A model generated the notes under the pieces. The model was not told the DNA's origin and searched no databases. It saw nothing but the letters and a program-made list of their open reading frames with translations. A DNA stretch of 64,000 nucleotides, from positions 25,754 to 89,753 of the forward strand of contig JARXAE010000008.1 of assembly GCA_029866005.1 (NCBI GenBank), in the 5' to 3' direction. The translations under genes were made by a program, and so were the position numbers. This DNA is from Fimbriimonas sp. (GTDB taxonomy: Bacteria; Armatimonadota; Fimbriimonadia; Fimbriimonadales; Fimbriimonadaceae). Each line of letters opens with the position of its first letter. The stretch's first letter is position 1. Positions 43,915-48,511 of the stretch are shown piece by piece.

Positions 43915-44457
43915 TTAGCTAGCTAATGGCAAAGACTGGAGTTCCGGGAAATATGGCAAGAAATCCCGCCATTCATCTCTTCCCTGAGCCTTCATGTAGG
44001 TTGGCAATGAAAGATAGGGAACAAACGAGGGGCGCTTTGGCTTGCGCGCCAACTTCATGTTGGCCTGTTGTGGAGTCTTATCCGCCTTCTTCAAATTGCA
44101 GCGGCGGCAACAAGCCACCAAATTGTCCCAAGTGTGCGGACCGCCTGCCCAACGAGGAACCACGTGGTCAATCGTCATCTCTTTAGCCTTAACGCCACAG
44201 TACTGACAGATATGGTTATCCCGAGCCAACACTGCATGTCGCGACAACCGCAACTGCGGATGCGGACGACGTACCAAATACTTCATCCGTAAAACTGCCG
44301 GCGAATCGATCTCACCATGCGTTGTATAGATCGGCTCATCTCGCTGAACCAATACATCCGCCTTGCCAAGCATCAACAAAGCCATCGCCCGCCGAGCATG
44401 ACACACGTTCAAAGGCTCATAGTTACTGTTTAAAACTAGTACTTCTTGCACTGCCAT
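43915..44457 (-). CDS. HNH endonuclease
   Basis: 180-residue HNH protein of the widespread stand-alone type. The N-terminal half (VLVLNSNYEPLNVCHARRAM) is followed by the HNH core: CQYCGVKAKEMTIDHVVPRWAGGPHTWDNLVACCRRCNLKK at about residues 89-129, with a CxxC...CxxC zinc frame. Not IscB-like (no RuvC). Upstream on the same strand is an unusual structured leader with a terminator (44482-44609), so its expression may be attenuated. Confidence 0.9.
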   Translation of the reverse strand: MAVQEVLVLNSNYEPLNVCHARRAMALLMLGKADVLVQRDEPIYTTHGEIDSPAVLRMKYLVRRPHPQLRLSRHAVLARDNHICQYCGVKAKEMTIDHVVPRWAGGPHTWDNLVACCRRCNLKKADKTPQQANMKLARKPKRPSFVPYLSLPTYMKAQGRDEWRDFLPYFPELQSLPLAS

Positions 44458-44481
44458 CTTAATTCACTTTTAACAAGCTAA

Positions 44482-44520
44482 AACGCACACAGCCCAGTCA
44501 CGCAATGTGCTGGGCTGTGT
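44482..44520 (-). terminator. intrinsic terminator in the HNH leader
   Basis: On the minus strand ACACAGCCCAG pairs without mismatch with CTGGGCTGTGT around a 12-base loop, followed by GCGTTTT. It lies only 30 bases upstream of the HNH start, so it would end a transcript before the gene rather than after one. Confidence 0.65.
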
Positions 44521-44609
44521 TGATTCGGGCGGCGGCGCGGGAGATTCGGCGTATAGCCGTATCCCGCCACATCTGTGGCGGAACGCTCACCCCCCTCCGT
44601 ATCAACACA
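44516..44609 (-). ncRNA. structured leader or small RNA, riboswitch-like arrangement
   Basis: The two ends pair perfectly (TGTGTTGAT with ATCAACACA, 9 bp). Inside lie a hairpin CGCCAC-AGAT-GTGGCG and a second one with GGGA/TCCC and CGGC/GCCG helices, plus G-rich GGAGGGGGG facing C-rich bases. The last five bases of the closing helix (ACACA) are also the first five of the following terminator stem, so the two cannot form together. No known aptamer family is recognised. It could also be an independent small RNA with its own terminator. Confidence 0.45.
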
Positions 44610-44870
44610 CGTTTCATCTTGCTATTCTTGTTTGACGATTGCTGTGCGCAAAAAGAAGCAACAAACAATCTTCGAAACTGCTGGGTTAACGAACATTTTA
44701 TGGTCCTGCCAAGAACCACACCATGTTCCCCGTCAAAGTATTGGCTGTTTGAACCTAAATGCGACCGGACCGAAGAAGACCAGCACGCTCTCCCAGAAGC
44801 CCCTTCCGCTGCAGGGATTACCAGTTTCGTTTACCAGCTACAGCCTTTACTAGGTCGGGAAAGTCAGCTC

Positions 44871-45167
44871 ATGAGGAAAACCAAAGGTGTCATGGTAGAT
44901 CAGAACGATTTTCGGGGACAGCGGATCGCACGAGCAGAGTTTGCGAGGCGCGGAATAGACATTTCTCGCTCCGACCTTTATGTTATGCACGGTGTGCTCT
45001 ATATGCGAGGCGAAGTCAAAGCAATGCCAAACGCCACCTTTTTTGACATAGCAGCAGAGATGGGTCTCGTCACAAAGATCTTGCGTCAGCGTCCAGAGAT
45101 TCGAGATCTCGTCCTGGAAGTCAAGATCGCAGGCGAGACTACTGAGCCGATCGAAGCAGCCGCATGA
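44871..45167 (+). CDS. small protein, possibly BON-like
   Basis: 98 residues from ATG 44871, where GGGAAAG lies upstream; ATG 44892 (MVDQNDF) is an alternative with AAAGGTG upstream. The longer ORF from 44505 covers a non-coding-looking region and I reject its first part. The protein RRGIDISRSDLYVMHGVLYMRGEVKAM followed by ILRQRPEIRDLVLEVKI has the beta/alpha order of a BON domain, but the match is weak. It converges with folC, overlapping by 29 bp. Confidence 0.55.
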   Translation: MRKTKGVMVDQNDFRGQRIARAEFARRGIDISRSDLYVMHGVLYMRGEVKAMPNATFFDIAAEMGLVTKILRQRPEIRDLVLEVKIAGETTEPIEAAA

Positions 45168-46407
45168 TTTCACCAACTGCATAAAAACTCCCCGAAACGA
45201 GATACCCCTCCGTACCCTCAGCGTGGTCAGCCGCCTTTATGGCGGCGACCGTGCTGTCAAAGGTACTGGTCTGAAGTCCTAGCTTTTGAATCGTAATCGA
45301 AAGCTCGTTAGGAGTCATCGAACGGGGATTATCAACTGGGACAACCCAGAACTCCTTGACGAAGGGAGCGATCCTTGGATAAAACTGCTCCGGATCATGC
45401 CCCTGAAGCATTCCGGTGACACAGATCAAGTCCCGCTTACCGTCCTGTGCCAGCATTGCAGCGAGCACTTTCGCCGAATCCGGATTGTGTGCACCGTCAA
45501 ACACCCACTCCGAATTCCGATACTCCAACCGCTGGTAACGACCAGGAATTGCTGCAGTTGCAAACCCTCGCTGAACTGCTTCAGGGTCTCGCAGGGCACC
45601 ACCAAGCTCGATTGCAGCGTAGGCAACTGCGGCATTGTGCTGTTGAACTGCCCCAAAAAGGCTGGGCTCAAGCTCAATTCGTGAAGTCGGAGTTTCAATG
45701 GTAACCGTCCCGCTTGGATTGACTTTGTAGTTGACTTCGATTCCTACCCTCCAAATATCAGCCCCAACCTCCGCCGCCTGCTTCTCGATCACCCGAAGCG
45801 GACCTGGATCCATTTCGCCGATCACGGCAGGCTTTCCTGGCTTGAGAACCCCTGCCTTCTCGAAGGCGATCTCTTCAACCGTGTTCCCCAGAATGCTCAC
45901 ATGATCGAGACCGATGCTCACAATCGCCGAGCAAGCAGGGTCGATGATATTGGTGGCATCCAGCCGCCCTCCTAATCCGACCTCCAATGCGACAAATTCG
46001 CACCCGTTTCGCCTCCAGCACTCGAGCCCAAGTGCGGTCTTGAATTCAAACTCTGTTACTCCGCCATACTCTGTCTCACTCAGGCTTTCTCCGATAGGCT
46101 TCAAGGACTCAGTGATTTCAGCAAGTTGGCTCTCCGAAATGTAATCTCGGCCGACCTGAATCCGCTCTCTTGGATCGACAACGTAGGGGCTAAAGAAGGC
46201 ACCTGTCGATATTCCCTGCTCCACCAAAGCGCTCTGAATCATCGCCGTCGTCGAACCCTTACCATTTGTTCCGGCAACATGAATGAACTTTTGCTCAGAA
46301 GGAAGCAGCGAAGCCCGCCGAGCAAACTCTTCCATGCGGTCTAGTCCCAGCCTCCAACCGCGAGGAGACAGGCTTGCGATGTATTGAACAGCCTGATCGT
46401 AAGTCAT
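45139..46407 (-). CDS. folC: folylpolyglutamate/dihydrofolate synthase
   Basis: Adds glutamates to folate; Mur-ligase fold of 422 residues from ATG 46407 (MTYDQAVQYIASLSPRGWRLGLDRM). The ORF-track extension to 46638 overlaps another gene and is not real. P-loop HVAGTNGKGST near residues 43-53, FFSPYVVDPRERIQ after it, ALEVGLGGRLDATN near 145 and the C-terminal EWVFDGAHNPDSAKVL near 295 are all present. It overlaps the small membrane gene by 4 bp and lies in the mnmG row. Confidence 0.96.
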   Translation of the reverse strand: MTYDQAVQYIASLSPRGWRLGLDRMEEFARRASLLPSEQKFIHVAGTNGKGSTTAMIQSALVEQGISTGAFFSPYVVDPRERIQVGRDYISESQLAEITESLKPIGESLSETEYGGVTEFEFKTALGLECWRRNGCEFVALEVGLGGRLDATNIIDPACSAIVSIGLDHVSILGNTVEEIAFEKAGVLKPGKPAVIGEMDPGPLRVIEKQAAEVGADIWRVGIEVNYKVNPSGTVTIETPTSRIELEPSLFGAVQQHNAAVAYAAIELGGALRDPEAVQRGFATAAIPGRYQRLEYRNSEWVFDGAHNPDSAKVLAAMLAQDGKRDLICVTGMLQGHDPEQFYPRIAPFVKEFWVVPVDNPRSMTPNELSITIQKLGLQTSTFDSTVAAIKAADHAEGTEGYLVSGSFYAVGEIMRLLRSAQ

Positions 46408-46625
46408 TGACCGCGCCGTGCTTGCTCCTCGTCCATTAGCTTGTTGAGATAAACGAAACCACCGACAACAAGGGCCAGCAATACAGCCGACAACAAAATT
46501 TCGCCTGGCCGCACCAGTTTCAGAACGTAGCGACCTTGGGGAGAATAGCGAGCAAAAATCGCAATGAGCAGTCCAAGTCCCGCCATCGAACCGTACAGAA
46601 CTCCGAATAGCTTCCAACCCCTCAA
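46404..46625 (-). CDS. small two-helix membrane protein
   Basis: 73 residues with two hydrophobic helices (residues 6-25 and 42-60) and a charged tail MDEEQARRGQ. No family recognised. It overlaps folC and mnmG by 4 bp at each end (ATGA on both sides), which argues that it is translated as part of this row. Confidence 0.75.
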   Translation of the reverse strand: MRGWKLFGVLYGSMAGLGLLIAIFARYSPQGRYVLKLVRPGEILLSAVLLALVVGGFVYLNKLMDEEQARRGQ

Positions 46626-48511
46626 GCCCGACCCCCAACTCGACCCTTCAAATATCCAATCAGCAACGCAATATCCGTCGGCCTCACCCCTGGGATCCGC
46701 GAGGCTTGCCCCACTGTCGTGGGGCGAATCCTGCTGAGCTTCTCTTTACTTTCAAAGCTCAAACTGTTCACCGACTCGTAATCCCAATCATTCGGAATCC
46801 GAAGTTCATCCAGCTTCTGTGCCTTCTCGGCCATTCGCTTCTGCTGAACGACATAGCCGCTGTAGAGAGCCTGTAACTCGATTTGATCTCTCGCCTCTCC
46901 GCTGGTAGGAATTCCGAGTTCGATTCCCATTTTTGAGGCAATCTCCTCCACCTTTTCTAGCCTAATTTCAGGTCTTCGCATCAAATCAAACAGCGAAGTC
47001 TTCTGCTTGGAAGCATTCAACCCGAGCTCACCAAAGACATCCTCATCTGCAATCGAAACATAATTGGATTCCAAAGCAAAGAGTCCTCGCTGAATGATTT
47101 CCTGCTTGCGGTTGAACCGCTCCCAACGAGGATCATCGCACAGTCCTACGCTTCTGCTCAACGGAGTCAGCCTCTCATCCGCATTATCGTGCCTTAGTAG
47201 AAGACGATGTTCCGCCCTCGCCGTCAACATTCGATACGGGTCCTCGACCCCTTTCGTGGTGAGATCGTCAACCATCACGCCAATGAAGCTGTTCGTCCGA
47301 GAAAACTCGACAGGCTCATCATCGCGCGCCCACCGCGCGGCGTTGATTCCTGCGACGATTCCTTGTCCGGCGGCCTCTTCATATCCACTTGTACCGTTCA
47401 ACTGCCCGGCCAAAAACAGACCTGGACACAGTTTTGACATCAACTGTGGGGTGAGCTGTAGCGGGTCCGCCATGTCGTACTCAACCGCGTATCCTGGTCG
47501 GAGCATCACCATGTTTTCAAGCCCCCGCATGGTCTTGAGAAGTTCTTCTTGAACCCAAGCTGAGAGCGAAGTCGAGACCCCCTGAACGTAAACGTCCTCA
47601 CCGCTCCAAGTCTCTTGCTCAAGAAAGACCGGGTGCGAATCCTTGTCCGCAAACCGAACGATCTTGTCCTCAATACTTGGACAATATCGGGGCCCGACTC
47701 CCTCGATTTGTCCGCTGAACATTGCGCTTTCCTGAAGGTTGTTCTGAATCACTTCATGGGTACGAAGGTTGGTGTGAGTCTGCCAACAAGGCAAGAGCGG
47801 CCGCTCGGGGAACGAACGGTCGTGCAAAAAGCTCATTGCCCCCGCATCCTCCTCGCTCTCCATCAACTCTGTCTTCGAGAAATCAATCGAAGACAAAGCG
47901 ATTCTCGGCGTCGTCCCTGTCTTAAACCGCCTCAACCTAACGCCAAGCGAACTCAAGCATGCTGACAACCCAACCGCCGCCGCATCCCCGTGCCGAGCCG
48001 CTACCGTCTGCTTCTTTCCTTCGTGACACAAACCATTGAGGAACGTTCCCGTCGTCAAAACAACCGAGCGTGCTTCGATAACCGAACCATCTAGTAGCTC
48101 GACTCCTTTCACCCCAAGGTCGGTCCAGAGCACCCGTTCAACCGCCGCCTCGATCACCGTCAAGCCATCCTGCCGAGCAAAGACTCCCTGCATGAGGACC
48201 GGATATAGATCCTTACAAACGTGCGCCCGGAGTGTCTGCACCGCCGGCCCTTTTCCAGTGCCAACCCGCCGAATATGAGTCAGCGCAAAGTCCGTCGTCA
48301 CCCCCATCTGCCCGCCTAAGGCGTCCACTTCTCGAGCAATATGGCCCTTCGCCGGACCCCCGATGGAACAGTTACATGGCAAGTGACCAATGCGGTCTTT
48401 CCGCATCGTAATGCAAGCCGTGCGGAGTCCCATCCGAGCTGAGGCTAGTGCCGCCTCAATCCCGGCATGCCCGGCGCCAACCACGATCACATCAAACCGG
48501 TTCACTCCCAC
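46622..48511 (-). CDS. mnmG: tRNA uridine-34 modification FAD enzyme MnmG
   Basis: Partner of MnmE in wobble-uridine modification. 629 residues. The FAD-binding start FDVIVVGAGHAGIEAALASARMG is at 5-27, and GQLNGTSGYEEAAGQG near 355 is the family signature. The C-terminal helical domain carries SRIPGVRPTDIALLIGYLKGR. It overlaps the small membrane gene (4 bp) and the fRMsr-like gene (10 bp), so GAF-mnmG-small protein-folC look co-transcribed. Confidence 0.97.
   Translation of the reverse strand: MGVNRFDVIVVGAGHAGIEAALASARMGLRTACITMRKDRIGHLPCNCSIGGPAKGHIAREVDALGGQMGVTTDFALTHIRRVGTGKGPAVQTLRAHVCKDLYPVLMQGVFARQDGLTVIEAAVERVLWTDLGVKGVELLDGSVIEARSVVLTTGTFLNGLCHEGKKQTVAARHGDAAAVGLSACLSSLGVRLRRFKTGTTPRIALSSIDFSKTELMESEEDAGAMSFLHDRSFPERPLLPCWQTHTNLRTHEVIQNNLQESAMFSGQIEGVGPRYCPSIEDKIVRFADKDSHPVFLEQETWSGEDVYVQGVSTSLSAWVQEELLKTMRGLENMVMLRPGYAVEYDMADPLQLTPQLMSKLCPGLFLAGQLNGTSGYEEAAGQGIVAGINAARWARDDEPVEFSRTNSFIGVMVDDLTTKGVEDPYRMLTARAEHRLLLRHDNADERLTPLSRSVGLCDDPRWERFNRKQEIIQRGLFALESNYVSIADEDVFGELGLNASKQKTSLFDLMRRPEIRLEKVEEIASKMGIELGIPTSGEARDQIELQALYSGYVVQQKRMAEKAQKLDELRIPNDWDYESVNSLSFESKEKLSRIRPTTVGQASRIPGVRPTDIALLIGYLKGRVGGRA

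Follow-up and report, generated by a model that had tools for sequence, protein, structure and literature searches.

Control of transcription by a translated leader peptide is already known in several forms. In the pyrBI (pyrL) attenuator of Escherichia coli, the leader open reading frame (ORF) spans an intrinsic terminator, and the closely coupled ribosome represses that terminator (PMC4824070, PMC5021804). A polyproline pause ahead of such a terminator restores termination and cuts readthrough; in this EF-P-dependent coupling, described with engineered reporters, Pro-Pro precedes an intrinsic terminator in a translated region and stalled ribosomes lower readthrough (PMC5021804). Attenuators of the trp, his, and ilvB1 type combine a short translated leader, regulatory codons, and a terminator (for ilvB1, see PMC13236596). 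In mycobacteria, leaderless short polycysteine upstream ORFs (uORFs) precede an operon, and their elongation speed sets downstream expression; control is exerted on downstream translation through contiguous Cys codons (cited in PMC9031893).

Here we describe the leader of an HNH endonuclease gene in a 64,000-nucleotide stretch of Fimbriimonas sp. DNA (the window; Table 1). With a probability of about two in three, we read it as a leaderless leader-peptide transcription attenuator of the pyrBI type, with the terminator embedded in the uORF, in which smooth translation would turn HNH on and pausing would cause termination. Compared with pyrBI, the target is a nuclease and not a pyrimidine enzyme, and the leader is apparently leaderless, with a conserved WPPxWxDTIIR core and rare AUA codons. 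For a nuclease target, there are no grounds for assuming the UTP-sensing control by U-rich polymerase pausing that operates at pyrBI. The mycobacterial uORFs share the putative leaderless design, but here the uORF contains an intrinsic terminator and has another core. Unlike trp-, his-, and ilvB1-type attenuators, the locus has neither a conserved antiterminator nor an amino acid biosynthesis target, and its leader ORF extends into the terminator. Pro-Pro occurs here as a PPxW motif, which is missing in sister families. New here are the leader family and its target, the combination of a putatively leaderless uORF with an embedded terminator, and the preference for AUA; a literature search for leader peptides of Armatimonadota found none described.

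Table 1. Features of the HNH leader region (window coordinates)
Feature	Position	Strand	Remark
Promoter-like stretch CGTCAAACAAGAATAGCAAG	44618..44637	-	Directly before the uORF start; -10 match in the window weak
Putatively leaderless small ORF (leader peptide) MKRVLIRRGVSVPPQMWRDTAIRRISRAAARINTAQHIA, 39 aa, then stop	44498..44617	-	Homologous uORF in 75 loci; selection on the core
Conserved leader-peptide core VPPQMWRDTAIR, with rare Ile codon ATA	44549..44584	-	Family consensus WPPxWxDTIIR
Predicted intrinsic terminator hairpin, 11 perfect pairs, 14 with a bulge	44487..44520	-	Inside and overlapping the uORF end
Terminator tail GCGTTTT	44480..44486	-	Read from the sequence
Closing helix, 5' strand (uORF codons 3-6)	44601..44609	-	Only in G000 and G018; not conserved
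Closing helix, 3' strand, overlapping the terminator 5' arm	44516..44524	-	Pairing exact in the sequence
HNH endonuclease gene, 180 aa, PLMP-like N-terminal and HNH domains (IshB-like)	43915..44457	-	Single copy

The structural elements that a sequence-only reading had proposed for this leader are all present in the window. On the minus strand, TGTGTTGAT is the exact reverse complement of ATCAACACA, giving the 9-bp closing helix, and ACACAGCCCAG (44520-44510) is the exact reverse complement of 44497-44487, giving the 11-bp terminator stem. The T-rich tail directly follows this stem, bases 44516-44520 are common to both helices, and 29 nt separate the stem from the HNH ATG (44457). The 128-nt leader had a predicted folding energy of -67.2 kcal/mol (z = -5.35 by RNAfold), and none of 200 shuffles was as stable. 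When the two states of the window sequence were compared in RNAfold, the two were nearly equal, at -67.2 kcal/mol for the terminator and -66.2 kcal/mol for the closing helix. Until the terminator 3' arm is made, the lowest-energy fold is the one with the closing helix, and by this prediction that helix would form first during transcription. Of the dinucleotide shuffles, 0.34% produced a perfect helix of at least 9 bp between the 5' part of the leader and the terminator 5' arm, and 3.6% contained a perfect 9-bp helix at any position. The closing helix is thus a genuine and somewhat unusual feature of the window sequence.

The same reading had taken the two mutually exclusive helices for a transcription-attenuating riboswitch. 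Across 39 aligned leaders, 31.3% of the closing-helix cells were paired, compared to 30.8% in shuffles, so the helix is specific to the window lineage, which comprises the window genome (G000) and G018, the one other genome with the helix in a near-identical leader. A separate energy test of the closing helix gave a mean z of -0.01. In the same 39 leaders, the terminator had changes on both sides in 14 of 14 pairs and 89.7% of its cells paired, values that none of 500 shuffles reached. The terminator was also the sole consensus structure of this alignment, in which no aptamer-like fold emerged. A search of the window against Rfam returned only tRNAs, and the leader, as claimed, matched no known aptamer. 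An aptamer riboswitch, suggested by helices that exclude each other in this single sequence, is hardly credible for a nonconserved closing helix in a region that has no aptamer consensus and no Rfam match, and that is coding and under purifying selection. What is supported is a transcription attenuator before HNH, with a conserved and covarying terminator in a unit tied to that gene. An independent minus-strand small RNA, put forward as the alternative, is unlikely because the conserved content of the leader is coding. We also considered a hairpin CCGCC..GGCGG formed by the PPxxWR codons and rejected it, as it is absent from the consensus fold and its pairs break where the codon changes.

Missed in the riboswitch proposal was a coding uORF. 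We anchored a small ORF on the HNH strand in 75 loci (67 nonredundant) of the Fimbriimonadia (Armatimonadota), a group of soil and water bacteria. The typical peptide reads M-x12-W-P-P-x-W-x-D-T-I-I-R, followed by a variable tail, with a median of 13 codons from start codon to core; in sister families, the corresponding position is occupied by M-x13-R-W-S-T-G-S-W-F-G-T/M. All 11 third-position differences between the cores of loci L057 and L064 were synonymous, and L057 and L058 differed in their cores by seven synonymous changes and one nonsynonymous change. Beyond the core, close pairs showed no synonymous bias, and the tail looked neutral as a protein. These comparisons indicate that the core is under purifying selection at the protein level, and it could equally be part of a functional small protein. 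A uORF profile gave strong matches in 61 genomes, every one directly before the HNH gene. No convincing second copy was found elsewhere in the genomes (the best off-site match had an E value of 0.004 and an internal stop), and inspection by eye revealed no uORF in other Armatimonadota classes or in Chloroflexi. In most sampled members of those other Armatimonadota classes (L152-L163 and L123-L125), a terminator lies approximately 30 to 90 nt upstream of HNH, at times right after the stop codon of the upstream gene, without a recognizable uORF.

A strict pattern search identified a terminator-like hairpin with a T-run in 63 of 67 relatives. In the Fimbriimonadaceae, the distance from the uORF start codon to the stem has a median of 92 nt (interquartile range, 90 to 94), and that from the stem to HNH varies between 8 and 101 nt (standard deviation, 20). 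Of 51 Fimbriimonadaceae uORFs, all have their stop codon past the terminator 5' arm, 49 also clear the complete stem, and 45 end no more than 20 nt from the HNH start codon; in most relatives the uORF frame crosses the terminator and ends at the HNH start codon. This frame is open through the terminator in 51 of 67 leaders, compared to 36 expected from shuffles (P of about 2.5e-5, uncorrected for phylogeny), and the other two frames are open in 34 and 40 of 67. In the window, as in G018, the uORF already stops inside the terminator loop, at a distance of 40 nt from HNH, making translational coupling less likely in this lineage. Relative to L003, the two leaders of the lineage (L001 and L002) have one extra terminator-loop base, which ends the uORF there. 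These two leaders are nearly identical, turning alike at the promoter-like stretch (from CGTCAAACAAG on), and the DNA upstream of this stretch is unrelated. Many Fimbriimonadaceae terminators (L010-L029) share the loop-proximal sequence GTGTGCGTGTGCA, although terminators need no such sequence.

Initiation signals differed between the two genes. Just before the uORF, a -10-like hexamer (at least 4 of 6 matches) was present in 70% of 67 relatives, compared to 38% in shuffles, and a Shine-Dalgarno (SD)-like sequence in 15%. Before HNH the proportions were reversed (-10-like, 19%; SD-like, 81%). This pattern fits a single transcript from one promoter that carries first a leaderless uORF and then HNH with its SD sequence. 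With at most 30 nt between stem and HNH in 24 of 63 leaders, there is also little room for a second promoter. The -10 box of the window lineage itself is weak. These signals bear on the view that the uORF simply encodes a small protein and has a terminator of its own, HNH being expressed through leaky readthrough or its own promoter with no regulation by the uORF. Purifying selection on the peptide core would fit such a gene, and terminators after genes are common. The view is nevertheless rather improbable, as -10 enrichment at HNH is slight, the uORF occurs only before HNH, the terminator lies within the frame at a fixed distance, and the protein beyond the core is unconserved, yet its frame remains open to HNH.

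For the pyrBI-type attenuator that we favor, we infer the following sequence of events. Transcription would begin at the uORF ATG or a few bases before it, and a ribosome would load at the 5' end. If unpaused, the ribosome would trail RNA polymerase closely and block the hairpin at about +92, allowing readthrough into HNH. In most relatives, the same ribosome would reach its stop codon no more than about 20 nt from the HNH start, so that translation of HNH may be coupled. A pause at the W-P-P-x-W-x-D-T-I-I-R core, in which Ile is almost always encoded by the rare AUA, or failed loading would instead let the hairpin fold and end transcription. On comparative evidence, a coding, HNH-linked leader ORF lies upstream on the HNH strand, and a terminator lies between the leader start and HNH. 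As in pyrBI, the leader ORF of relatives runs through the terminator; that of the window stops within the loop.

The leader was slightly and unspecifically more complementary to the terminator 5' arm than shuffles were (mean z of -0.65 in 67 leaders), leaving room for an antiterminator and thus for control of the opposite sign. Under trp-type control, low levels of charged tRNA-Trp or of the AUA-reading tRNA-Ile would stall the ribosome at the core, allowing an antiterminator to form and so turning HNH on. The tandem rare AUA and Trp codons, placed at a fixed distance before the terminator, are in line with such a design. A search for a common antiterminator, however, gave scattered pairing positions and no such helix in the consensus fold, and no conserved antiterminator that would exclude the terminator was found. 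The uORF also crosses the terminator, whereas in amino acid attenuators more than 20 bp separate the end of the leader ORF from the terminator (PMC4824070). We consider trp-type control unlikely.

The rare codon in the core is constrained in its own right. At the two core Ile positions we counted 62 ATA, 3 ATC, and 0 ATT codons, and ATA makes up 4.9% of Ile codons in long ORFs around these genes (background usage was taken from the long ORFs of the retrieved loci). The third positions of the core Pro, Asp, Thr, and Arg codons vary freely, and the constraint therefore acts on the ATA codon and not on the whole stretch. Before the core, 21 of 40 Ile codons are ATA, an enrichment smaller than that in the core. 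A conserved -10 element in the core stretch GATAATACG was considered and is unlikely: ATA stays when its neighbors change (ATC ATA, GCG ATA, and ATA GGC), and no -35 element is evident upstream of the stretch. AUA codons are read only by lysidine-modified tRNA-Ile, and both TilS and EF-P are encoded in the genome. A doubtful but specific extension would make the leader a codon-specific sensor, in which tandem AUA codons behind a Pro-Pro/Trp nascent-peptide pause in a leaderless uORF tie the expression of an ancient IscB-related nuclease to the state of AUA decoding or to an attack on translation; tRNA damage, antibiotics, or phage would be the equally tentative candidates for such an attack. 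Sister families lack the Pro-Pro and AUA features and have the core W-S-T-G-S-W instead, and the pause signal is thus not constant.

The HNH gene is retained in 97 of 101 relatives from throughout the phylum, in most cases as a single full-length copy. Its product matches Pfam HNH_5, and NCBIfam guided_IscB in two stretches, below the model cutoff; the alignment of its PLMP region to TbaIscB is weak. The predicted structure (mean pLDDT of 85.8) matches the HNH part of Cas9 and IscB and also IsrB. As IsrB has no HNH domain, the latter match must come from the PLMP-like N terminus (for the PLMP domain, see PMC9581776). We call the protein IshB-like, with a PLMP-like N-terminal domain and an HNH domain and without RuvC. 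IshB was reportedly defined by Altae-Tran in 2021. The size of about 180 aa and the PLMP-like and HNH domains agree with IshB; the differences here are a vertically kept, single-copy gene and the putative leader-peptide attenuator. In IsrB, the PLMP domain contacts the terminal omega-RNA hairpin that adjoins the SD sequence (PMC9581776), and a PLMP-like domain in the HNH protein might point to the leader RNA as an omega-RNA-like partner. We saw no omega-RNA at the HNH leader, which offers a single covarying hairpin and coding sequence and no scaffold like the 262-nt one of omega-RNA. The gene also lacks a mobile-element pattern, being present as one full-length copy per genome in nearly all of the 101 genomes, and a partner RNA is very improbable. 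A literature search on IshB retrieved nothing specific.

Next to the leader, the sequence-only reading had dismissed a long plus-strand ORF as a shadow. This holds for the part over the HNH leader but not for 44871-45167, which is a conserved gene (38 of 41 genomes). The listed 220-aa ORF consists of this gene of approximately 98 aa and a shadow extension over the leader. The gene lies divergently upstream and shares 29 nt with the terminal part of the minus-strand ORF 45139-46638; in relatives, it is mostly found at other genomic places. The HNH gene and leader of L087 (JADZEW010000001.1), one of the retrieved loci, are of the Fimbriimonadaceae and almost the same as in L086; the record title, Methanoregulaceae archaeon, is probably wrong.

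IscB-like HNH nucleases have been discussed as a step toward Cas9. A conserved leader that ties expression of a stand-alone, vertically inherited IshB-like protein to translation would provide a testable handle on when the nuclease is made. The leader moreover provides a natural example of a terminator retained within a reading frame at fixed spacing, with one rare codon under selection.
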